DNA of 43,814 nt from an uncultured Eubacteriales bacterium (lineage in GTDB: Bacteria > Bacillota > Clostridia > Christensenellales > CAG-138): positions 1-43,814 of the forward strand of contig UQRU01000008.1 in NCBI GenBank assembly GCA_900543475.1, given 5' to 3'. A program made the translations under genes and the position numbers. Under the pieces are notes generated by a model, which saw only the letters and a list, made by a program, of their open reading frames with translations, made no database searches and was not told the origin of the DNA. This document shows positions 945 through 43,814 of this stretch, piece by piece (position 1 is the first letter of the stretch; each line of letters starts with the position of its first letter).

Positions 945-969
945 AGGACACGACCTCGGAAAAATAATA

Positions 970-992
970 GGATCGCCCGAAAAGGGCGATCC
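970..992. repeat. terminator-like hairpin, left copy flanking element 1
   Basis: Perfect 9-bp stem GGATCGCCC/GGGCGATCC with loop GAAAA, 25 nt after the NlpC stop. It is repeated exactly, in the same direction (loop GAAAA), at 1348-1370 on the other side of the element. Confidence 0.85.
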
Positions 993-998
993 CCAGCC

Positions 999-1341
999 TG
1001 TCGAAAAACCCCCGGGGGTTCGGGGGCCGCAATGCAGTTCGCAAAGGCCGCGCTGCATCGGCCCGTGGGGTCTTCCTGGCGCTCCCTTGCTCACTGGGCT
1101 TCCGCCTCGCTCCTCTCGCTACTGGCGGCGCTCGGCTCCGCCCACCGGAGGCTTTAATCGGATTTGGCGGCGCAAGGTGAATTGTCCCGAAGGGACAAGA
1201 GAAGGCCCCCTGGGGGGTGTACGGCAAATCCGCAAAAAGCCTTGCGTAGCAAGGGTTTCCCTGCATAGCTCCCTGGCCGCGCCGTAGGCGCAAGGGAGCT
1301 ATGAAAACCTCGAAAAAGTGGCGCACGCCACTTTTTCGACA
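999..1341 (+). mobile_element. terminator-associated miniature element, copy 1 (343 bp)
   Basis: Begins TGTCGAAAAA and ends TTTTTCGACA (10-bp terminal inverted repeats). Inside are several small hairpins: TTGTCCC/GGGACAA near 1180, CCTTGC/GCAAGG near 1240, CATAGCTCCCT/AGGGAGCTATG near 1264-1303, and a right-end hairpin GAAAAAGTGGC/GCCACTTTTTC that contains the right terminal repeat. No credible protein is encoded; the open frames on both strands shift between copies. This is one of two long copies (the other is at 15915). It sits between two identical hairpins with 6 nt on each side. No transposase is present, so it would need to be moved in trans, or be a structured RNA repeat. Confidence 0.75.
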
Positions 1342-1347
1342 GCCTGA

Positions 1348-1370
1348 GGATCGCCCGAAAAGGGCGATCC
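1348..1370. repeat. terminator-like hairpin, right copy flanking element 1
   Basis: Identical to 970-992, including loop GAAAA. It lies 20 nt beyond the stop of the minus-strand wall hydrolase, so it may now serve as that gene's terminator. Confidence 0.85.
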
Positions 1371-1390
1371 CGTATTATCCATTGAACTAC

Positions 1391-3932: not shown

Positions 3933-3977
3933 CATAGGAATAAGTTGAATTATAAAATTTTTATAAATATTCCTATG
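3933..3977 (-). terminator. hairpin at the end of the lipoprotein array
   Basis: 10-bp perfect arms CATAGGAATA (3933-3942) and TATTCCTATG (3968-3977) enclose an AT-rich loop that itself can fold. The hairpin overlaps the last codons and stop of the last lipoprotein gene. It is a plausible transcript end between the array and the wall hydrolase. Confidence 0.45.
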
Positions 3978-5155
3978 TAACGTGTAGTAGGATAAAAATT
4001 GTATAAGCTGCTAGCCCACCTATCCCCCTGTCCAGTATAGATCAAAGATAGTTCCTGTGAACCGTCCTCTATAGCCCAGTGAAGTGAAAACATGCCGTCA
4101 ATATACCGCTGCGAGTTATTTATATCGATATCCTCCAGGCGTTCCCGCCGGTTTTCCGCCCCCAAAGCCGTATCCAATGTTCGTTGCAAAGCCTGAAACA
4201 AAACCATGGCATCCTGTGGCGATGCATCATCTAATGGAATGCAATATCGGCCTTTGGCTATGCGTGGATCCGATTCGCTGACCGGGTAAAAGACAAGAAA
4301 TGCGGCATGATCCAGTATATTTAAGCCGTCTACCACATAGCTTGCAGGCGCCGGAGCTTCGGATGGAGCGGTGCGTTTTAAATCCGTAGCGCAAACTGTT
4401 TGCGCCCCGTAGTCAGCAAGAATGGTTTGCGCTTGGGCAGTAAAGAGTTCCGGGTCGTGATAAATACCCAAGGGGTCGAAATATGTGGATGCGCCATGGG
4501 GACAGCAGTCATTGCCAAAAGGATAGGCGTAGATTGTTCGGTGATCCAGCCGGTCTACATAAGCCGCAACATACCACTTCGACGGCTGGCTCCCAACGAT
4601 TTCCTCCCCAATTTCGAAAATTCGATCTTCCAAATACCAGCGCGCCATCACTTCCCCCGTATGCGTCAGCAAGTTGTCCGGCGCGATCGAAACAAATTCG
4701 CAATAGGAATTCGCCCCAAAGGCTTCGTCCGGCTGGCCCAGTTCCTCCACCATAGAAAGATACACGCCTTCAAAAGCGGAAGTGGGGACTTCCTGGGTTT
4801 GTGCGGCCACGATTTGACGCACATTGCCTGCATTCGCCTGGATAAAGAGGCGCGCTTCATAATCTCCCAAAACATAACCGGGGATCTCATATAAATCAGG
4901 CATGGTCGGGTCCTTGGCCCCATATTTTGCTGCCAAATCGGCAATGTCCATCTGCAAAACATCGGGATCACGGGTAAACCCTATCGGGTCAATGGATGCC
5001 GGCAAGCGTATGGCTTGCGCTTGCTCGGGAGGGGCTGTAGATGGGCTGGCGTCGTGTAGACTAGGCGTAGAGGCTGCATCTACCCGCTCCGCCGGAGCGG
5101 CGCAACCCACGAGCAGAAGCAGGCACAGGAGCAGGGGAAGGGCGAAAGATTTCAT
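3950..5155 (-). CDS. lipoprotein, paralogue family A (copy A1)
   Basis: 401 residues; start at MKSFALP with AAAGGAGGCC upstream. Type II signal peptide with lipobox LLVGC, then a short Ala/Ser/Thr/Pro linker, so it is anchored on the outer face of the membrane. The body holds two copies of one module. The first is DPIGFTRDPDVLQMDIADLAAKYGA and the second DPLGIYHDPELFTAQAQTILADYGA; between them lies a beta-rich stretch with W.LEDRIFE and DCCPHGASTY. It resembles the gene at 6378-7631 throughout. I recognise no named family. It is the last gene of a five-gene co-directional array, 24 nt after the preceding gene, and the array's repeated junctions suggest growth by duplication. Function unknown. 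Confidence 0.85.
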   Translation of the reverse strand: MKSFALPLLLCLLLLVGCAAPAERVDAASTPSLHDASPSTAPPEQAQAIRLPASIDPIGFTRDPDVLQMDIADLAAKYGAKDPTMPDLYEIPGYVLGDYEARLFIQANAGNVRQIVAAQTQEVPTSAFEGVYLSMVEELGQPDEAFGANSYCEFVSIAPDNLLTHTGEVMARWYLEDRIFEIGEEIVGSQPSKWYVAAYVDRLDHRTIYAYPFGNDCCPHGASTYFDPLGIYHDPELFTAQAQTILADYGAQTVCATDLKRTAPSEAPAPASYVVDGLNILDHAAFLVFYPVSESDPRIAKGRYCIPLDDASPQDAMVLFQALQRTLDTALGAENRRERLEDIDINNSQRYIDGMFSLHWAIEDGSQELSLIYTGQGDRWASSLYNFYPTTRYIGIFIKIL

Positions 5156-5179
5156 ACTTGGCCTCCTTTGGCGGATCAT

Positions 5180-6361
5180 TTATCGCGTATCGTCCTCGAA
5201 AAACGTGGCGGCCCATTGCTGTTGGAAGTCGTCGCCCTCACGGGAAAGGGCCTGAAGCTGCTCCCCGAAGTAGAAGCGCAAGACCGCCTTGTCGGTTTCG
5301 CTATAAAGGGGATAGGCTTCCGGAGGAGTCCGCAAATAAAATGCATTGGCAGAGGGATCATAAAAAAGGTGAATGGGTGCCTTTGCCGCAAAGATATCCG
5401 GTTCCGGTGCATATTGCAGAATGTCTCCTCCTTCTACCTGGTTACGATAGACGGCGCCCAGCTGCAAACAGGCGTTCAACTCCACATAGCTTGCTTCTTT
5501 GCTTTCGACAGGGATGGCTTGCTCTACGACTCTTTCTTGAAATTGAAATACGTTTTCAGCTACGTTATATTCATCGTAAAAGGAATGCATATAGCAAAGC
5601 TCTACCGCCCTGGTGGATAAATTATACCAATAGGTTCTATAGTTATGATACCCGGACCCCCAGCCTCCGCAAGCATATACCATGAAGGGTTGGCCTGCAA
5701 AGCGGAGGAAGCTATATCCCCCCACCCTTGTCGTTGCATGATCTACCAGGCTCCAGGGAATATACCCTTCTGCTGTACGTTGAAAAAACAAGCTTACGTT
5801 TCCCGAATACCATTCTATTTCCAAGCTTACATGCAGATAATCCCCTTGGAACACCTCGGTACATTCCCAGCCATCGATCGCTTCATCTGCTGAAAAGAGT
5901 GCCCCCTCGGTCTCTAATCCAAATACCGCTAAGGCTTCCGGTAACTCTTTTAAAGGAACCTTACTTCCGACAATAGCAGCACCCAGGGCCTCCACTTGAA
6001 CTTTGGTCCACAGACCGCCAAAAAGGGAGGCGGTGTGCTGCGTCAATTCACCAACGGGGCAAAGCTCCGTACCGGCAAGATAAAAGGGCTCCCCATCGTT
6101 TTGCAAGGCCATTTCCCGGACGTAGACTTCCGGATAAGGGGACGACGGCGTGGCAATCGGAATGCTAGAGGGACGATCCAGCCTATCGGTAGGAAGGGGC
6201 GTGCTCCTATCCGGCGTGGGCAAGGGCTCCAATGAGGACGTGTGTGCCAGGTTTTCCGTTGGTGCAGCGGCCGGCGCAGCCATAGCCGATTCAGCTGCCG
6301 ACGGGGCGGCGCACCCCCCAAGCAGAAGCAGGCACAGGAGCTGGGGAAGAAATTTGATCAT
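5180..6361 (-). CDS. lipoprotein, paralogue family B (copy B1)
   Basis: 393 residues; start at MIKFLPQ with GAGGTG upstream. Signal peptide with lipobox LLGGC and a long Ala/Pro/Thr linker to about residue 70. The body shares with 7656-8792 and 8817-9986 the pattern FFQR..., FL.FAGQP.MVY, GSGY...YWYNLST and the closing block RFYFGEQLQAL..EGDDFQQQWAATFFEDD. No enzyme motif is visible; the aromatic and beta-rich text suggests an extracellular binding or scaffold domain. It is the most diverged family B copy. It starts 16 nt after the A2 stop and is followed by A1, so A and B genes alternate here. Confidence 0.85.
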   Translation of the reverse strand: MIKFLPQLLCLLLLGGCAAPSAAESAMAAPAAAPTENLAHTSSLEPLPTPDRSTPLPTDRLDRPSSIPIATPSSPYPEVYVREMALQNDGEPFYLAGTELCPVGELTQHTASLFGGLWTKVQVEALGAAIVGSKVPLKELPEALAVFGLETEGALFSADEAIDGWECTEVFQGDYLHVSLEIEWYSGNVSLFFQRTAEGYIPWSLVDHATTRVGGYSFLRFAGQPFMVYACGGWGSGYHNYRTYWYNLSTRAVELCYMHSFYDEYNVAENVFQFQERVVEQAIPVESKEASYVELNACLQLGAVYRNQVEGGDILQYAPEPDIFAAKAPIHLFYDPSANAFYLRTPPEAYPLYSETDKAVLRFYFGEQLQALSREGDDFQQQWAATFFEDDTR

Positions 6362-6377
6362 GGGGCACCTCAGCAAA

Positions 6378-7631
6378 TCATGGCATTATGCTTAATTCGT
6401 AAGAAAGACGAATATACCGGGGCACCTGATACTTTCTAGTTATAAAATCAAGCGAATTATCAGCCCCCGGATAACAATAGGCAAGAAATATGGGGTTAAA
6501 TTCGCCAATACGCCAGTGTAGGTTTACGCCGGCATAGGATTCATATAGTTCTTCATCATAGATCGTCCAGGGAAGATCTTCATCCATGGGATGAAAGTCG
6601 TTTCTCTCGGCTACGGTATCCAGCAATTCTGCCATGGTGGTATATAGCTGGCAGATCTCCGCCGGGGTCTCATCCTGCAACAGCAAATAATAATCCGCAT
6701 ATCGGACCGTATTCTCTTGGGAGATGAGCCGGTCATAAGGCGAAAAATGAATGTAAAATTCCAGAAATGCCGGCACCTCCATTATCTCCAAGCCGTCCTT
6801 TATGTAATAAAAAGGATAGGGGTATTCGCCATAACTGGTACTTTCTACCAGATGCTGATAGGTCTCCTGGGCGCCATATCTTTCCAGGATGGTTTCCGCA
6901 TCTGCCGTAAAAAGCTCCGGGTCCTTATAGATCCCCAAGGGATCATAGTATGTCCCTGCATCGTGGGGGCAGCAATCGTTCGCTCGATCATAGCCATATA
7001 TGGAAAAACGATCCAACTCATCCGTATAGACGGCAAGATACCAATACATGGGGAAATTCCCATATACGGGCTCCCCAAACTCCAGGATGCGGTCCTCCAA
7101 ATACCAGCGGGCTTTTATTTCAGTGGGGTGCTCCAGCACGCTGTCGGGAGAAATCGGGACAAAGGCTCGATTGCGGTATATATCCGTTCCCAGCGCTTCA
7201 TCCGGCAGCCCCAGCTCTTCGACGATGGAAAGATATACTTCCTTAAAGGAGGAAGAATATCTTGCATCTTTCGTTTGCCTGGCTGCAACCTGGGTCACCT
7301 TGCCGTTTTCCGTTTTAATGATCAGGCGCGCTTCCAGGGCCCCCAGGATATAGCCGGGGCCCTCATATATGTCCGGCAGCACAGGAGCCTGGGCCCCGTA
7401 TTTTTCTGCCATATGGATGGCCGGTTCCGTCCTAAGTTCCGGGTCTTTGGTGACGCCCAGCGGGTCGAGACATTCCGGAACCGCAAACGCCGGGGTTGCC
7501 GTGGGCGCGGGGGAAGGCGTAGCAGTAGGCGATGCAGCAGGCGTAGGGGCCGCCTGTACCTGGGTTGCGGGGACCGAGCAACCCCCAAGCAGGAGCAGGC
7601 ACAGGAGCAGGGAAAGGGCGGAAGATTTCAT
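6378..7631 (-). CDS. lipoprotein, paralogue family A (copy A2)
   Basis: 417 residues; start at MKSSALS behind AAAGGAGGCC. Lipobox LLGGC, then a PTPAASPTATPSPAPTA-type linker. As in A1, a module is duplicated: DPLGVTKDPELRTEPAIHMAEKYGAQ near residues 55-80 and DPLGIYKDPELFTADAETILERYGAQ in the middle of the protein, each followed by a strand pair. WYLEDRILEFGEPV and NDCCPHDAGTYYDP are shared with A1. It is encoded between B2 and B1. Unknown function; probably exported and membrane-tethered. The internal repeat suggests a two-domain binding protein. Confidence 0.85.
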   Translation of the reverse strand: MKSSALSLLLCLLLLGGCSVPATQVQAAPTPAASPTATPSPAPTATPAFAVPECLDPLGVTKDPELRTEPAIHMAEKYGAQAPVLPDIYEGPGYILGALEARLIIKTENGKVTQVAARQTKDARYSSSFKEVYLSIVEELGLPDEALGTDIYRNRAFVPISPDSVLEHPTEIKARWYLEDRILEFGEPVYGNFPMYWYLAVYTDELDRFSIYGYDRANDCCPHDAGTYYDPLGIYKDPELFTADAETILERYGAQETYQHLVESTSYGEYPYPFYYIKDGLEIMEVPAFLEFYIHFSPYDRLISQENTVRYADYYLLLQDETPAEICQLYTTMAELLDTVAERNDFHPMDEDLPWTIYDEELYESYAGVNLHWRIGEFNPIFLAYCYPGADNSLDFITRKYQVPRYIRLSYELSIMP

Positions 7632-7655
7632 ACTTGGCCTCCTTTGGCGGATCCG

Positions 7656-8792
7656 TTATTGTGCGTCGTCCTCAAAAAATGTGGCAGCCCATTGCTGCTG
7701 GAAGTAATCGCCCTCCTGCAAAAGCGTCTGAAGCTCTTCCCCGAAATAATACCGCCACATGGAATCGGACATGCCGTTGACCAGGGGGCAGGACTCCGGC
7801 ATAACTCGGGTATAGAATGCCTGGGCCTGTTGATCATAGTAGAGCCGCAGTTTGGTTTCTGCTGCAAAGGTATCCGGTTCAGGGGCGAGTTCGACCACCT
7901 CCCGGTCCTCCTTCCGATCCCAGTATTCCGCCTCGAGCTGTAGATGCACCGCAACTTCCAAATAGCTGTCCGTTCCATTTTCCACAGGATTTACTCCTAA
8001 AACCTGTATGCGCTTGGTTTCATAGGCGTCATAGCCTTCTTCGTTGGTTTTGGCCCAGCTATTCAGTAAATCATAGTCAAGGGCTAATTCCATCCGGCAG
8101 GTAGATAGGTTGTACCAGTATACAGAAATGGACATATATCCGCTACCTGTAGCATGATCTGTATACAGCGCCCAGTCCTGGCCGGCAAATTGAAAAAGCC
8201 CCAGTAGCCTTTCGTGATCCTTGATATACAGGGGCGTATCATCATCCCCATGACGCCGAAAAAACAGATCAATCCCCTTATTGTATTCCAGAAGCAAATG
8301 CAGGCGCCCATAAGAGCCTTCCAATTCATCTATCCATGCCCAATCCACAATCTTGTAGTCTCCGTAACTATAACCATAGGGGGGAAAATCCGCATCTGCG
8401 CCGACGGCTTGCAAGGCCCCCGCCAGGTCTGCCGCAAGCAATTGCTTCGCTGCCACCTCTTCCGCAAACGTCTCCAATACCGTATAGCTTACTGCTGTGC
8501 CGGTCAGGGTAGATGTGATGGCTTCAGCAGGCCATAGAAAAAATACATTCTCCGTTTCCTGCAGCGGGAGAAAAGGCCCGGGTAGGAATTCATAATCATC
8601 CGTATCGGCTACGGGGATCTTTGGCGTAGGCATGGATGTGCTATGAGGCGCAGGGGTCACAGTAGGCAATGCCGTCACCGTAGCGATGGGCGACACCGGA
8701 TGGGAGGCGACAACCTGCACCTGCTCCGCTGGTGCAGTGCAGCCCGTGAGCAGGAGCAGGCACAGGAGCAGAGGAAGGGCGAAAGATTTCAT
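7656..8792 (-). CDS. lipoprotein, paralogue family B (copy B2)
   Basis: 378 residues; start at MKSFALP behind AAAGGAGGCC, lipobox LLTGC. Its signal peptide matches family A (A1), while its body and tail are family B (LFFRRHGDDDTPLYI, FAGQDWALYTDHATGSGYMSISVYWYNLST, closing FQQQWAATFFEDDAQ). A signal-peptide segment shared across families is what recombination inside the array would produce. The stop is 24 nt upstream of the A2 start, the same distance as at the other junctions. Function unknown. Confidence 0.85.
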   Translation of the reverse strand: MKSFALPLLLCLLLLTGCTAPAEQVQVVASHPVSPIATVTALPTVTPAPHSTSMPTPKIPVADTDDYEFLPGPFLPLQETENVFFLWPAEAITSTLTGTAVSYTVLETFAEEVAAKQLLAADLAGALQAVGADADFPPYGYSYGDYKIVDWAWIDELEGSYGRLHLLLEYNKGIDLFFRRHGDDDTPLYIKDHERLLGLFQFAGQDWALYTDHATGSGYMSISVYWYNLSTCRMELALDYDLLNSWAKTNEEGYDAYETKRIQVLGVNPVENGTDSYLEVAVHLQLEAEYWDRKEDREVVELAPEPDTFAAETKLRLYYDQQAQAFYTRVMPESCPLVNGMSDSMWRYYFGEELQTLLQEGDYFQQQWAATFFEDDAQ

Positions 8793-8816
8793 ACTTGGCC
8801 TCCTTTGGCGGATCCG

Positions 8817-9986
8817 TTATTGTGCGTCGTCCTCAAAAAACGTGGCGGCCCACTGCTGTTGGAAGTAGTCGCCCTCCTGTAAAAGCGTCTGAAGCTCTTC
8901 CCCAAAATAATACCGCCACATGGACTCGATCTCACTCCACGCCGCAATGGGAACCGCTTCCAACGGGATGCGGACATAGAATTGGCAGGTATCCGGATCA
9001 TAATACAGATTCATCTTCACCTGCCCCATAAACAGGTCGGGCTCCGGCGCGGCCACCAAAAGATCGCCCTCCTCGGCGATATCCCAATATTTCGCTTCCA
9101 GCTCCAGGAGGATAATCAGGCTGAGATAGGGGTCTTCCGTCCCCTCCATGGGCGTATAGGATAAAGTGCCATATTGCTCCATTTTATAGCAATCCGGCCC
9201 TGCGGTTTCTGCGAGAAGGAAATCGTCATAATAGAATAATTCTTCCCGGCCATTTTCTATGTTGAACCAATAAGTATGTTCGACGCCAAAGCCGGTACCA
9301 TGACCGTTTATATGGTAGACCATCCAAGGCTGCCCCGCAAAGTACAGAAAGTTTACCACATCCGTATTGTCAAAGGCACTATCCATCATGGACAAGGGTA
9401 CGAACATATTTCCTTCCCTACGGAAGAACAGGCCCATCTTCCCATTGTTTGGAATCCATAGACACATATACATATATCGGTCATCCAGGATCCGCATACA
9501 GGAGGGAGTGCCATTAAGGGTCACTTCATCCAGCGGCGCGACATAGTTCGTCTCCAGTCCATATTCAGCAAGCGTATCGGAAAGGCGGCGCAAGGGAATA
9601 TCCGCAAGGGAATAAGCCAAGTCCCATAGCTGCGCCGCAGTCATGGGTTCTCCCGCTAAGGTAAGCGCATCATCCATGGAGGGAATAGGGTAAGTGGAAA
9701 ACGCTTCCGAAAAAAGGATCTTCTCCCCTTCTTCCGGTTCAAAATACTGTACGGGGACAGGAGGAGGCGTGCGATATCCTGAGCCGGAATAAGTAGGGCT
9801 AGGGGTATGCATGGCCGCAAAGGTCGTGGGCCGGGGCGTGAAGGTTGGGGAAGGCGTTACGTCAGGCGTGGGGACAGGCGTAGCCGCAGCCGCTTCCGTG
9901 GCGGCAGGGGGCTGCCCCCGCTCTGCCGGAGCGACACAGCCCCCAAGCAGAAGAAGGCAGAACAGCAGGGAAAGGAATTTGACCAT
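8817..9986 (-). CDS. lipoprotein, paralogue family B (copy B3), first gene of the array
   Basis: 389 residues from MVKFLSLL (AGAGGTG upstream; the 14 extra upstream codons of the open frame lack a site). Lipobox LLGGC, then a Thr/Pro/Ala linker to about residue 75. Body: MGLFFRREGNMFVPLSMMD, YFAGQPWMVYHINGHGTGFGVEHTYWFN, closing WRYYFGEELQTLLQEGDYFQQQWAATFFEDDAQ. The last block is almost identical to that of B2 even at DNA level. It is the promoter-proximal gene of the B-B-A-B-A operon. Unknown function. Confidence 0.85.
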   Translation of the reverse strand: MVKFLSLLFCLLLLGGCVAPAERGQPPAATEAAAATPVPTPDVTPSPTFTPRPTTFAAMHTPSPTYSGSGYRTPPPVPVQYFEPEEGEKILFSEAFSTYPIPSMDDALTLAGEPMTAAQLWDLAYSLADIPLRRLSDTLAEYGLETNYVAPLDEVTLNGTPSCMRILDDRYMYMCLWIPNNGKMGLFFRREGNMFVPLSMMDSAFDNTDVVNFLYFAGQPWMVYHINGHGTGFGVEHTYWFNIENGREELFYYDDFLLAETAGPDCYKMEQYGTLSYTPMEGTEDPYLSLIILLELEAKYWDIAEEGDLLVAAPEPDLFMGQVKMNLYYDPDTCQFYVRIPLEAVPIAAWSEIESMWRYYFGEELQTLLQEGDYFQQQWAATFFEDDAQ

Positions 9987-10072
9987 GGGGGCACCTCTTT
10001 TTTGATGGGGTTTTGAATAGTTTACCATATATATTTGAACGAAGTATGAATTTATGAAATGGGATATGAATA

Positions 10073-11994: not shown

Positions 11995-12028
11995 AGCCGG
12001 CCTTTTGGCGCAAGCCAAAAGGCCGGCT
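11995..12028. repeat. hairpin, left copy flanking element 2
   Basis: 15-bp perfect stem AGCCGGCCTTTTGGC with loop GCAA. The same 34 nt recur in the same direction at 12228-12261. Confidence 0.85.
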
Positions 12029-12033
12029 CTGCC

Positions 12034-12222
12034 TGTCGAAAAACCCTTGGGGGTTCGGGGGCCGCAGCCCCCGGAGGCTATAATCGGATTTGGCGGCGTG
12101 TACGGCAAATCCGCAAAAAGCCTTGCGTAGCAAGGGTTTCTCTGCATAGCTCCCTGGCCGCGCCGTAGGCGCAAGGGAGCTATGAAAACCTCGAAAAAGT
12201 GGCGCAAGCCACTTTTTCGACA
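12034..12222 (+). mobile_element. terminator-associated miniature element, copy 2 (189 bp, internally deleted)
   Basis: TGTCGAAAAA at 12034 and TTTTTCGACA ending at 12222. Relative to copy 1 it lacks the block after the first 40 nt and the TTGTCCC/GGGACAA to GGGGG hairpin block, so the element is modular. The GCAAATCCGCAAAAAGCC region, the CATAGCTCCCT hairpin and the right-end GAAAAAGTGGC hairpin are kept. It sits 5 nt from each flanking hairpin. Confidence 0.75.
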
Positions 12223-12227
12223 GCCAA

Positions 12228-12261
12228 AGCCGGCCTTTTGGCGCAAGCCAAAAGGCCGGCT
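12228..12261. repeat. hairpin, right copy flanking element 2
   Basis: Same 34-nt hairpin as 11995-12028 (loop GCAA again); here the stem extends further, CCAA/TTGG. Confidence 0.85.
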
Positions 12262-15876: not shown

Positions 15877-15886
15877 TGGGAAGGCT

Positions 15887-15908
15887 GGCGGCAGCGTATA
15901 CTGCCGCC
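15887..15908. repeat. hairpin, left copy flanking element 3
   Basis: 8-bp stem GGCGGCAG/CTGCCGCC with loop CGTATA, 10 nt after the lipoprotein stop; matched at 16263-16284 (loop CATATA). Confidence 0.85.
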
Positions 15909-15914
15909 TCAGGC

Positions 15915-16256
15915 TGCCGAGAAACCTTTGGGGGTTCGGGGACGCAATGCAGTTCGCAAAGGTCGCGCTGCGTCGGCCCGTGGGGCCTTCCTGGCGCTCC
16001 CTTGCTCACTGGGCTTCCGCCTCGCTCCTCCCGCCACTGGCGGCGCTCGGCTTTGCCCCCCGGAGGCTTTCATCGGCTTTGGCGGCGCAAGGTGAATTGT
16101 CCCGAAGGGACAAGAGAAGGCCCCCTGGGGGTGTACGGCAAATCCGCAAAAAGCCTTGCGTAGCAAGGGTTTCCCTGCATGGCTCCCTGCCCGCGCCGTA
16201 GGCGCAAGGGCGCCATGGAAGTCTCGAAAAAGCGGCGTTGCGCCGCTTTTTCGACA
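15915..16256 (+). mobile_element. terminator-associated miniature element, copy 3 (342 bp)
   Basis: Left end TGCCGAGAAA (two changes from TGTCGAAAAA), right end TTTTTCGACA. Nearly full-length match to copy 1 (343 bp), including the block GCAATGCAGTTCGCAAAGG, the TTGTCCC/GGGACAA hairpin and the CCTTGC/GCAAGG hairpin. The right-end hairpin has changed on both arms (GCGGCG/CGCCGC instead of GTGGCG/CGCCAC), so pairing is kept. 6 nt separate it from each flanking hairpin. Confidence 0.75.
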
Positions 16257-16262
16257 AACGGT

Positions 16263-16290
16263 GGCGGCAGCATATACTGCCGCCTTCTTT
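16263..16290 (+). terminator. hairpin, right copy flanking element 3, with U-tract
   Basis: GGCGGCAG/CTGCCGCC followed by TTCTTT and TT: a full intrinsic terminator for the padR operon. The left copy (15887-15908) lacks the T-run, as expected if the element entered between the hairpin and its U-tract and duplicated the hairpin. Confidence 0.75.
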
Positions 16291-26732: not shown

Positions 26733-27941
26733 ATGACCATAGAAGAGAAATTCAGCCGCCTGGGGGTGGATAACGCGCCGGGCCAGGAAAGCCTGCAAGC
26801 GGATCTTCCCTTGGAGCTTCTGGGGGACCCCCTGCCCGGGGAACCGGTGGACTTTTCCCACGGGGATGTGGACGCCTTCCGGCCCGCCCCCGGAAGCCTG
26901 GAATGCTTCCTGGCGGGGGTGAAGGAGGGGGCGCGCCAGGCCTATACCCCCTACCGGGGCCGCCGGGCGGTGTTGGAGGACCTTGCCGCCAAGCTGTCCG
27001 CCTTTACCGGCTGCCCCATCGACCCGGCCCGGAACATCATCCTGGCCCCCGGCACCCAGGGAGCCCTGTTCCTGGCCATGGGCGCCTGCGTGCAGCGGGG
27101 GGACCCGGTGGCCTTCCTGGAGCCGGATTACTTCGCCAACCGAAAGATGATCGAATTCCTGGACGGCCACTTGCTGCCGGTGCCCCTGGACTATACCCGG
27201 GACCGGTCCCGGGCGGGGGTCGACCTGGCGGCGCTGGAGCAGGCCTTTCAGGCCGGCGCGAAGGTATTCCTGTTTTCCAACCCCAACAACCCCACCGGCG
27301 TTGTGTTTACGGAGCATGAGCAGCGGGCCGTCGCCAAGCTGGCCCGGGCCTATGGGGTAACCTTGCTGGTGGATAGCCTGTATGCCCGGCAGATCTTTGA
27401 CGGCCGGCCCTATTGTCATATGTGCAGCCTGCCGGAAGCGCCGGAGGAGATGCTCACCATCATCGGCCCCTCCAAGACGGAATCCCTCAGCGGCTACCGG
27501 CTGGGGGTGGCCTTCGGCTCGGCGGCCATCGTCCAGCGCATGGAAAAGCTGCTGGCCATCATGGCCCTGCGCTGCCCCGGGTATAACCAGGGGGTATTCT
27601 TCAGCTGGTTCAACGAGCCTGCCGGCTGGATGGCGGAACGGGTGCGGGCCCATCAGGCCATCCGGGACGATATCCTGGCGCTGCTGGCCCCGGTGGCGGG
27701 GGTGGAGGCCCGGCCCACCGAGGGGGGCAGCTACCTGTTCATCCGGCTGCCGGAGCTGACGGTGTCCCTGCATACCTTCGTGCGGATCGCCCGGCAGCAG
27801 GCCGGGGTCACCGTGACGCCGGGCACGGAGTTTGGGCCCCAATTTACCGCCCACATTCGCATCAATTTCTCCCAGGACCATAAAAAGGCCGTGGCCGCCA
27901 TGGAGCGGCTGCTAACGCTGGTGGAGGTGTATCGGGCATGA
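26733..27941 (+). CDS. PLP-dependent aminotransferase, class I/II
   Basis: 402 residues from MTIEEKFSRLG (GAAAGGA upstream; the 50 preceding codons include the terminator). Landmarks: YTPYRGRRAVLEDLA, PGTQGALFLAM, SNPNNPTGVVF (substrate/PLP Asn), LLVDSLYARQIF (Asp and Tyr at the ring) and GPSKTESLSGYRLG with the Schiff-base Lys. The ending EFGPQFTAHIRINFSQ has the carboxylate-binding Arg. It removes amino groups from an unidentified amino acid. Coupled (ATGA) to the RidA-like gene. Confidence 0.9.
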   Translation: MTIEEKFSRLGVDNAPGQESLQADLPLELLGDPLPGEPVDFSHGDVDAFRPAPGSLECFLAGVKEGARQAYTPYRGRRAVLEDLAAKLSAFTGCPIDPARNIILAPGTQGALFLAMGACVQRGDPVAFLEPDYFANRKMIEFLDGHLLPVPLDYTRDRSRAGVDLAALEQAFQAGAKVFLFSNPNNPTGVVFTEHEQRAVAKLARAYGVTLLVDSLYARQIFDGRPYCHMCSLPEAPEEMLTIIGPSKTESLSGYRLGVAFGSAAIVQRMEKLLAIMALRCPGYNQGVFFSWFNEPAGWMAERVRAHQAIRDDILALLAPVAGVEARPTEGGSYLFIRLPELTVSLHTFVRIARQQAGVTVTPGTEFGPQFTAHIRINFSQDHKKAVAAMERLLTLVEVYRA

Positions 27942-28360
27942 GAAGCCAAACGCCCATCCCCCAGGGGAAATACCGGCCTGCCCTGCGCAATGGGAACGCC
28001 ATCTATACGGCGGGCATGACCCCCAGGCGCAACGGCGTCCTGGTGCTGACGGGCCAGGTGGGGCCGGACACCCCCCTGGAAACCCTGGCCCCCGCCGTGG
28101 CCCAGGCGGCGCAAAACGCCCTGGCCGCCGCCCAGGGGGCCCTGGAAGCCGGGGAGCGGCTGCTGGGGCTCTTGAGCCTGACGGTCTATGTGAACGCCCC
28201 GGCAGGCTTCCAGGGCCATAGCCGGGTGGCGGATCTGGCTAGCCAGTGGTTTTATGAGCAGCTGGGGGAGGGGGCCATATGCCCCCGGACCGCCGTAGGG
28301 GTATCCTCCCTGCCGGGGGACGCGCCCGTGGAATTGCAGACCATATTCCTGTGGGGATGA
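27938..28360 (+). CDS. RidA/YjgF-family protein
   Basis: 140 residues, ATGA-overlapped with the aminotransferase. GNAIYTAGMTPRRNGVLVLTGQVGPDTPLETLAPAVAQAAQNALAAAQGAL, LTVYVN, and PRTAVGVSSLPGDAPVELQTIFLW carry the Rid fold and the conserved Arg. Rid proteins hydrolyse reactive enamine/imine intermediates made by PLP enzymes, which fits the coupling exactly. Confidence 0.9.
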   Translation: MRSQTPIPQGKYRPALRNGNAIYTAGMTPRRNGVLVLTGQVGPDTPLETLAPAVAQAAQNALAAAQGALEAGERLLGLLSLTVYVNAPAGFQGHSRVADLASQWFYEQLGEGAICPRTAVGVSSLPGDAPVELQTIFLWG

Positions 28361-28367
28361 TGGAAAA

Positions 28368-28390
28368 CGGGGCCGGCAACGCCGGCCCCG
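28368..28390. repeat. hairpin, left copy flanking element 4
   Basis: 10-bp stem CGGGGCCGGC/GCCGGCCCCG, loop AAC, 8 nt after the ridA-like stop. Repeated at 28635-28657. Confidence 0.85.
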
Positions 28391-28395
28391 CAGCT

Positions 28396-28629
28396 TGTCG
28401 AAAAACCTCTGACGAATGGAAGATCGCGGCCCTTTTAGGCTTTCATCGGATTTGGCGGCACAAGGTGAATTGTCCCGAAGGGACAAGAGAAGGCCCCCTG
28501 GGGGGTGTACGGCAAATCCGCAAAAAGCCTTGCGTAGCAAGGGTTTCCTTGCATAGCTCCCTGGCCGCGCCGTAGGCGCAAGGGAGCTATGAAAACCTCG
28601 AAAAAGTGGCGCAAGCCACTTTTTCGACA
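28396..28629 (+). mobile_element. terminator-associated miniature element, copy 4 (234 bp)
   Basis: TGTCGAAAAA to TTTTTCGACA. The left third differs from copies 1-3 (CCTCTGACGAATGGAAGATCG) but matches the truncated copy at 43743, so there are at least two left-end subtypes. From GGATTTGGCGGC onward it is almost the same as copy 1. 5 nt separate it from each flanking hairpin. Confidence 0.75.
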
Positions 28630-28634
28630 GCCAA

Positions 28635-28657
28635 CGGGGACGGCAACGCCGGCCCCG
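28635..28657. repeat. hairpin, right copy flanking element 4
   Basis: CGGGGACGGC-AAC-GCCGGCCCCG, one base different from the left copy (28368-28390), followed by TTT. Confidence 0.8.
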
Positions 28658-30039: not shown

Positions 30040-30059
30040 GGGGATATGGGATAGGACCG

Positions 30060-30350
30060 GGGCTGCAAGGGGGTTCCCAATGGTCCCGCTGGTTCGGCCT
30101 GCGGCCCTTCCCGGCGCGCCCTTGCGCACGGGGCTTCCGCCTCGCCTTTTCTGCCGCCGGCGTCCCTCGGCTTTCGCGGTTCGCTGGGCGCTGAGGGGAT
30201 TTGCCGGCGCAATGTAACTTGTTCTGAAGGGACCAGGGAAGGCCCCCTGGAGGTGTGCGGCAGATCCGCAAAAAGCCTTGGGCGGCAAGGGGTTCCCTCC
30301 ACGGCTCCCTGGCCGCGCCGTAGGCGCAAGGGCGCTATGGAACCTTCCAA
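30060..30350 (+). mobile_element. decayed copy of the miniature element (copy 5)
   Basis: Diverged but clear match to the interior of copies 1 and 3: CTTGCGCACGGGGCTTCCGC, the TTCTGAAGGGACCAGGGAAGGCCCCCTGG stretch in shortened form, GCAGATCCGCAAAAAGCCTTG, and CTCCCTGGCCGCGCCGTAGG. The TGTCG ends and the flanking hairpin pair are no longer recognisable. The decay shows the family has been resident for long. Confidence 0.6.
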
Positions 30351-30382
30351 CCCGCGGCGAAGGCCAACCTGTTCGTCAACGC

Positions 30383-37316: not shown

Positions 37317-37322
37317 ATATGC

Positions 37323-37456
37323 AGCTTCGGGGGGTGGTGTAATTCCACACCGGCGGTGATGCGGCCCATGTGCCGACAAGCCCGCGAACAGGGCCCTTGC
37401 CCTGCCGAACCGGTTGGATTCCGGTGCCGACGGTGATAGTCCGGATGGAAGAGGCT
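37323..37456 (+). promoter_or_regulatory. FMN riboswitch (RFN element)
   Basis: Contains the RFN landmarks in order: CTTCGGGG, ATTCCACACCGGCGGTGAT, GCCCGCGA, GGTTGGATTCCGGTGCCGACGGT, ATAGTCCGGATGGAAGAGG. When FMN is bound, the terminator just downstream should form and ribU expression stops. Confidence 0.95.
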
Positions 37457-37482
37457 GTGCGCGTCTATGCGCTCTTTGCGTT

Positions 37483-38222: not shown

Positions 38223-38239
38223 GGAACCAATGGAATAAG

Positions 38240-38440
38240 GAAAACGGAGCAAGGTTGCCCCCAAAGGGGGCCGGCGCGTTTGCGCTGCGGGAATTGGATG
38301 CAACTTCCAAGCTATCCCAGTAACCGTGAAGCTGACGAGGGGGCATAGGCCACTGCCGCATCCGGCGGGAAGGCGCCCCAGTAGGAAGAAGCCAAGCCGG
38401 GAGACCTGCCTGCCCGTAGGATCTGCGTCTGGGGGTGCGC
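38240..38440 (+). promoter_or_regulatory. cobalamin riboswitch
   Basis: Landmarks: GCCACTG equivalent (GGCCACTGCCGC), GGGAAGGCGCCCCAGTAGG, GAAGCCAAGCCGGGAGACCTGCC, which is the B12-box. Followed by btuFCD, so cobalamin should shut off its own uptake. Confidence 0.92.
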
Positions 38441-43692: not shown

Positions 43693-43742
43693 TGAGAAAA
43701 ACGCCAAAGCCAAGTCAGACAAAAAAATAAAAAAAGCCAGCT

Positions 43743-43814
43743 TGTCGAGAAACCTCTGACGAATAGAAGATCGCAGCCCTTTTAGGCTTTCATCGGATTT
43801 GGCGGCACAAGGTG
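43743..43814 (+). mobile_element. miniature element, copy 6, cut by the window end
   Basis: TGTCGAGAAACCTCTGACGA onward matches the left end of copy 4 closely (CTCTGACGAATAGAAGATCG, CCCTTTTAGGCTTTCATCGG). The left flank is an A-rich run, not an obvious hairpin; the right side is outside the window. Confidence 0.7.

Follow-up and report, generated by a model that had tools for sequence, protein, structure and literature searches.

The small repeated elements in the window (the whole stretch of DNA that was analyzed, 43,814 nucleotides in length) are most likely IS1182-type MITEs for which a hairpin at the insertion site sets the target duplication. We put the probability at roughly 0.84 that the window copies are MITEs of the IS1182 family that were mobilized in trans, that their targets were chosen by shape, and that the duplication left at each target corresponds to one hairpin.

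Four element copies of 353, 199, 352 and 244 bp align as one family with internal length differences. The initial annotation had listed these copies, all four of which are real, and had missed two further ones, located at about 30059-30366 and from 43738 onward. It had also given the family shared 10-bp ends, which are exact in seven of the eight cases. Exact TGTCGAAAAA occurs seven times in the window, compared with 0.04 occurrences expected, and all seven are element ends; the eighth end, on the left of copy 3, reads TGCCGAGAAA instead. Placing the element boundary 5 nt outward of TGTCG gives the end CAGSCTGTCGAAAAA, the extra bases being CAGCC or variants thereof. The element features of the window, with this boundary, are listed here.

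994..1346, + strand: element copy 1, 353 bp, with ends CAGCCTGTCGAAAAA / TTTTTCGACAGCCTG.
1310..1339, no strand assigned: subterminal palindrome TCGAAAAAGTGGCG/CGCCACTTTTTCGA at the right end of copy 1, a terminator-like hairpin of the element's own.
12029..12227, + strand: element copy 2, 199 bp, without internal parts of copy 1.
15910..16261, + strand: element copy 3, 352 bp, with the diverged left end TGCCGAGAAA.
28391..28634, + strand: element copy 4, 244 bp.
30059..30366 (about), + strand: element copy 5, decayed, with 77-82% identity in the aligned parts and ends that are not recognizable.
43738..43814, + strand: element copy 6, left part only, cut by the end of the window.

Each of copies 2-4 has, at its right end, a palindrome similar to that of copy 1, and the 77 nt of copy 6 share 96% identity with copy 4. 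The four full copies are short (199-353 bp), two further copies are partial, and several members of the set are near-identical. No transposase gene was recognized by eye among the window ORFs of at least 120 aa. Rfam gave no family at gathering score on the window elements, an internal pattern of the element had no match in the genome contigs or viral contigs scanned, and blastn with copy 1 as the query had no match in phage or plasmid records.

At four sites, the element stands between two copies of a hairpin.

969..993, + strand: site 1 hairpin, left copy, 25 nt, alike at 25/25 positions with 1347-1371.
1347..1371, + strand: site 1 hairpin, right copy, 25 nt.
11995..12028, + strand: site 2 hairpin, left copy, 34 nt, alike at 34/34 positions with the right copy.
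12228..12261, + strand: site 2 hairpin, right copy, 34 nt.
15886..15909, + strand: site 3 hairpin, left copy, 24 nt, alike at 23/24 positions with the right copy.
16262..16285, + strand: site 3 hairpin, right copy, 24 nt.
28368..28390, + strand: site 4 hairpin, left copy, 23 nt, alike at 22/23 positions with the right copy.
28635..28657, + strand: site 4 hairpin, right copy, 23 nt.

The two hairpin copies at each of the four sites have the same orientation and abut the element once the boundary is moved 5 nt outward. The earlier description of directly oriented hairpins that match within a site and are unrelated between sites is borne out by the counts above (25/25, 34/34, 23/24 and 22/23) and by the flank comparisons, in which 4/4 same-site pairs and 0/12 cross-site pairs matched. 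The initial annotation had further reported gaps of 6/6, 5/5, 6/6 and 5/5 between hairpin and element. The hairpins abut all four elements when the ends are extended by 5 nt, and the alternation of 6/6 with 5/5 arose because the outermost bases of the duplication had been omitted at sites 1 and 3. The longest exact runs shared by the flanks of sites 1-4 are 25, 34, 13 and 17 nt, with site 3 reaching only 13 nt because its single mismatch sits centrally. In 20,000 random flank pairs taken from outside copies 1-5, exact matches extended to 14 nt at most; a match of 13 nt or more was seen in 21 pairs, and one of 17 nt in none. The 3' ends of genes point at the hairpins at all four sites, from both sides at sites 1 and 3 and from the left side at sites 2 and 4, where ORF 27938-28360 stops 7 nt short of the site 4 hairpin.

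The bracket is present in four of the six window copies, the remaining two being the decayed copy and the one that is visible on one side. No duplicated hairpin was found around copy 5. A single hairpin follows that copy. Copy 6 has an A-rich visible left flank, in which the criterion applied detects no flush hairpin.

A larger set of insertions came from another genome. The single-end pattern GSCTGTCGAAAAA was matched in 95 of 391 genomes of the class, with 46 matches in genome G282 and 23 in genome G558, and each of the other matching genomes had at most five, which is near the control level. The G282 matches lie at fixed distances from contig ends, and an IS1182-type transposase (NF033551) starts about 100 bp inside them. 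Thus, the G282 matches are termini of an abundant IS (about 24 copies) at which the assembly was broken. The transposase matches are 81-residue fragments that score 76 bits, which is below the cut-off of 270 because only 81 residues precede the contig end. Twenty-four left and 20 right ends of this IS were read. A flush hairpin (within 2 nt) adjoins 22/24 left and 19/20 right ends, the exceptions being two left ends and one right end, versus 25 of 2200 control positions.

Comparison of the left with the right flanks in G282 (480 combinations) yielded 16 unique pairs that share 17, 21, 24, 24, 25, 26, 27, 27, 27, 28, 28, 30, 31, 33, 34 and 36 bp (a range of 17-36 bp). Fifteen of these pairs are identical and the remaining one matches at 16/17 positions, and none of the 16 paired left ends has a second match. 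The shared segment is a centered inverted repeat in 14 of the 16 pairs; in pairs L181/L192 and L233/L226, two additional bases extend it on one side. When the sites were rejoined, 14/16 resembled intrinsic terminators by a simple count of T or A tracts (T-rich or A-rich), and an ORF of at least 60 aa ends toward the hairpin within 300 nt at 14/16. Eight of the 24 left ends and four of the 20 right ends have no partner, and since the G282 contigs break at the IS, missing contigs may account for these.

The family assignment draws on intact and partial copies in other genomes. Genome G290 has an intact IS1182 copy (L161, 1392-2913) with ends CAGACTGTCGAA and a 484-aa transposase, which scores 385.9 bits with the IS1182 model (cut-off 270) and has DUF772 and DDE domains. 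The hairpin copies that flank this IS are alike at 33/35 positions. They differ at two loop bases only, and the loop reads inverted, as if it had been flipped after insertion. Partial transposases at L163, L168 and L164 score 207-242 bits, below the IS1182 cut-off of 270, with IS1182 as the best match. Ends of the CAGCCTGTCGAAAAA / CAGACTGTCGAA type occur in elements of G282, G331, G271 and G290, beside NF033551 matches. Genome G331 has four ends of the same sequence, all of which abut hairpins and one of which leads into an IS1182-type transposase; a diverged end in this genome (L179) has no flush hairpin. The CAGSCTGTCGAAAAA-type terminal inverted repeats of the window copies match those of such IS1182-type elements, the partners being elements of other genomes. 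Since the ends match and the window elements contain no recognizable gene, we take them to be MITEs of such an IS, and judging from the sequences they may have been mobilized in trans by an IS1182 transposase.

Other matches to the end patterns were less informative. Only two of 30 single-end matches (L131-L160) abut a hairpin, namely L137 and L143, and the others look like chance. Genome G006 has two contig ends with CAGCCTGTCGAAAAACCC (L143 and L264), each beside a different hairpin (seen by eye for L264); both are left ends, and they have 75 nt of the element inside in common. G006 is the genome of Firmicutes record L023 and is among those nearer to the window by ThrS (72%). For the threonyl-tRNA synthetase of the window, identity reaches no more than 74%, over part of the protein, among the matches listed from 248 genomes of one order, and the best relatives of the window's glutamine synthetase in genome contigs, from Firmicutes/Clostridia records, are at most 70% identical. 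Visual inspection of the matches in L207-L210 revealed no comparable element, and these were set aside. IS1182 copies from the sample of 248 genomes were inspected in part; two of them, L092 and L094, have ends that are similar, not identical, and were not counted.

A viral contig (L001, 3298-3508) carries a 211-bp relative between 24-nt hairpin copies that are alike at 23/24 positions. Phage relatives of this site were compared at 14 loci, of which one (L240) was the query and three (L246, L248 and L252) were left out, and none of the 10 examined has element ends within 700 nt. In phage L241, a single GC-rich hairpin of that kind follows the same gene as at the L001 site, with no element present; L241 also has weaker inverted repeats, and alignment of the small convergent ORF next to the site is weak (score 36; the corresponding alignment in L247 is moderate, with a score of 79). 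One hairpin is present at the corresponding place in L243 and L250, several are present in a longer gap in L245 and L247, and L249 has an imperfect hairpin only; L242, L244, L251 and L253 have no intergenic hairpin for comparison. A pair of hairpins without an element, which the initial annotation had named as an observation against its own proposal, was seen in none of the 10 relatives. That proposal, insertion at an intrinsic terminator with a target duplication as long as the hairpin, is supported by the 16 end pairs of G282 and by the single-hairpin phage relative. Viral end-pattern matches L002, L003 and L116-L121 were also inspected and have no comparable bracket around the match.

What is the mechanism by which an insertion could duplicate a hairpin? 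The transposase may bind the CAGSCTGTCGAAAAA ends and pick its target by shape, the target being an inverted repeat able to form an extruded hairpin or cruciform, in most cases an intrinsic terminator. Strand transfer would link the element's two 3' ends to the 5' feet of that hairpin, one on either strand, leaving each flank with a single strand of the entire stem-loop, which gap repair would then make double-stranded. Because each flank would receive a whole stem-loop, the duplication would amount to one hairpin, and its length (17-36 bp) would follow the hairpin and not a fixed stagger. Cruciform recognition, the strand-transfer chemistry and gap repair are putative steps of this scheme. 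Given that the duplication matches the hairpin, strand transfer at the 5' feet followed by repair is the simplest route. Most DDE transposases produce duplications of a fixed length because the spacing of the cuts is built into the protein complex. A duplication whose length follows the hairpin, as in the 16 paired insertions and at the four window sites, points to a structural substrate. It is fairly probable that for some IS1182-family elements DNA secondary structure serves as both address and ruler, with cutting at both 5' feet of an extruded terminator hairpin.

Several known systems resemble parts of this behavior. Group IIC introns also favor intrinsic terminators, but they are retroelements, not known to carry inverted ends or to duplicate their target. 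Siguier et al. 2015 are said to have reported palindromic targets for the IS1182 family. IS1272 and TnSha1 have a transposase of the same family (IS1182) and likewise use hairpin targets; as described in two papers on these elements, hairpins are targeted without sequence specificity, and RNA-seq confirmed five of the targets to be transcription terminators (PMC4923244, PMC5678879). In the same accounts, IS1272 deletes the stem-loop wholly or in part and makes no target duplication, whereas the elements considered here retain the stem-loop and double it. Pathway b in Fig 13 of Wan et al. 2017 shows 3' ends joined to the 5' feet of the stem-loop, with duplication of the whole stem-loop (PMC5678879). 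The predicted outcome of that pathway is the duplication seen here; the figure presents it as an alternative without an example, and for IS1272 the authors favored a different pathway on the grounds that this element deletes the hairpin. IS1630 of Mycoplasma fermentans, a member of the IS30 family, duplicates inverted repeats according to the title of Calcutt et al. 1999 (via PMC3317919), and PMC3317919 gives 16-26-bp duplications at four of seven complete IS1630 copies in M. fermentans M64. IS1630 differs from the elements considered here in its IS30-family transposase, the relatives here having the IS1182 type.

Thus, the earlier statement that no described element does this was too strong in light of the IS1630 and IS1272 papers. 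Terminator targeting with deletion by the IS1182 family and duplication of inverted repeats by the IS30 family are already published. Hairpin duplication by an IS1182-type element or MITE is new as far as the open-access literature searched shows, in which we found no report of it.

An alternative explanation of the duplicated hairpins is an IS30-type element similar to IS1630, for which the phenomenon itself matches in both the title of Calcutt et al. and the duplications of strain M64 (PMC3317919). We consider this source unlikely given that the transposases seen inside TGTCGAAAAA-type ends are of the IS1182 type and that IS30 models were absent from the matches of the four relatives' transposases scanned (L161, L163, L168 and L164). 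It is also conceivable that the hairpin is replaced or deleted as by IS1272, so that both flanking hairpins were tandem terminators before the element arrived. Targeting of terminators without duplication by IS1272 and TnSha1, from the same family, as given in PMC4923244 and PMC5678879, would fit such a scenario, as would those relatives that have different hairpins on their two sides. Pre-existing pairs would not match 16 times in G282 and four times in the window, however, and phage relative L241 has a single such hairpin. Stem-loop deletion without duplication was not encountered at the four window sites or in the 16 G282 pairs, all of which keep and duplicate the hairpin, and we regard pre-existing tandem terminators as very unlikely.

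The hairpins could instead be part of the element, which would then be a composite repeat with flanking hairpins of its own. While the hairpins do adjoin the element at all four window sites, they are specific to their sites, as indicated by the 0/12 cross-site matches and by the lack of a second match for any of the 16 paired left ends in G282, and these findings contradict a composite repeat and leave it exceedingly improbable. Random insertion followed by selection for terminator sites, with gene conversion equalizing the hairpins, would account for the 14/16 G282 sites downstream of an ORF, where little harm is expected. It would leave unexplained why the boundaries lie at the foot of the hairpin and why the duplication lengths match the hairpins, and there is very little likelihood that it produced the pattern. 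Insertion of IS1182-type elements with duplication of the target hairpin remains the preferred reading.

The hairpin-duplication rule is not universal, since the flanks of some relatives mismatch. Matching flanks at the four window sites and in the 16 G282 pairs contrast with copies elsewhere whose flanks do not match (L122, L124, L125, L168, L205, L126 and five copies in G558), an outcome that the initial annotation had likewise set against its proposal. Two different hairpins stand on the two sides of L122 (G290), L124 (G403) and L125 (G282), which are 48 bp each, of L205 (G271), which is 70 bp, and of IS copy L168 (G290). The four short elements have ends of the same type as the others. The end hairpin of the genome's own IS is fused directly to an inverted end in L122 and L125, so both resemble internally deleted copies. 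Flanking hairpins that differ would result from an adjacent deletion, or from recombination between insertions at neighboring terminators, and these are candidate routes. L126 (G301) and five of the nine G558 copies, the five that were read (L123 and L127-L130), have no duplicated flank, and a flush hairpin is present among these six only at L128 (right) and L129 (left), on one side each. ISCaa15, also of the IS1182 family, is tabulated with 4-bp direct repeats in PMC3196728. The misfits leave confidence in the main reading unchanged because they are other small elements or matches due to chance and do not touch the 16 paired insertions.

The G558 copies have a structure of their own. They are palindromes of 31-33 bp (TGTCGAAAAAGCCC..GGGCTTTTTCGACA), after each of which comes AAGGGGAACGTGCG or a close variant of it. 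A long hairpin lies beyond this in four of the five copies read; its outer stem varies, its arms remain complementary, and its tip, CTGAATTTTGCGAAATTCAG, is the same in three.

If hairpin duplication by IS1182-type elements is correct, it would be a natural form of a pathway that has hitherto been only drawn as an alternative to hairpin deletion by IS1272, and it would allow the elements and their MITEs to spread without destroying transcription termination. Landing downstream of genes and leaving a hairpin on both sides would offer these elements a low-harm niche. With IS1272 as the deleter, it becomes a testable question whether the choice between duplicating and deleting the hairpin, within a single family, depends on which foot is cut, the 5' or the 3'.

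Apart from the elements, a series of lipoprotein-like ORFs with similar N-termini (by eye) occupies 3950-10028 on the minus strand of the window, and Rfam identified an FMN riboswitch (37319-37460, + strand) and a cobalamin riboswitch (38235-38427, + strand).
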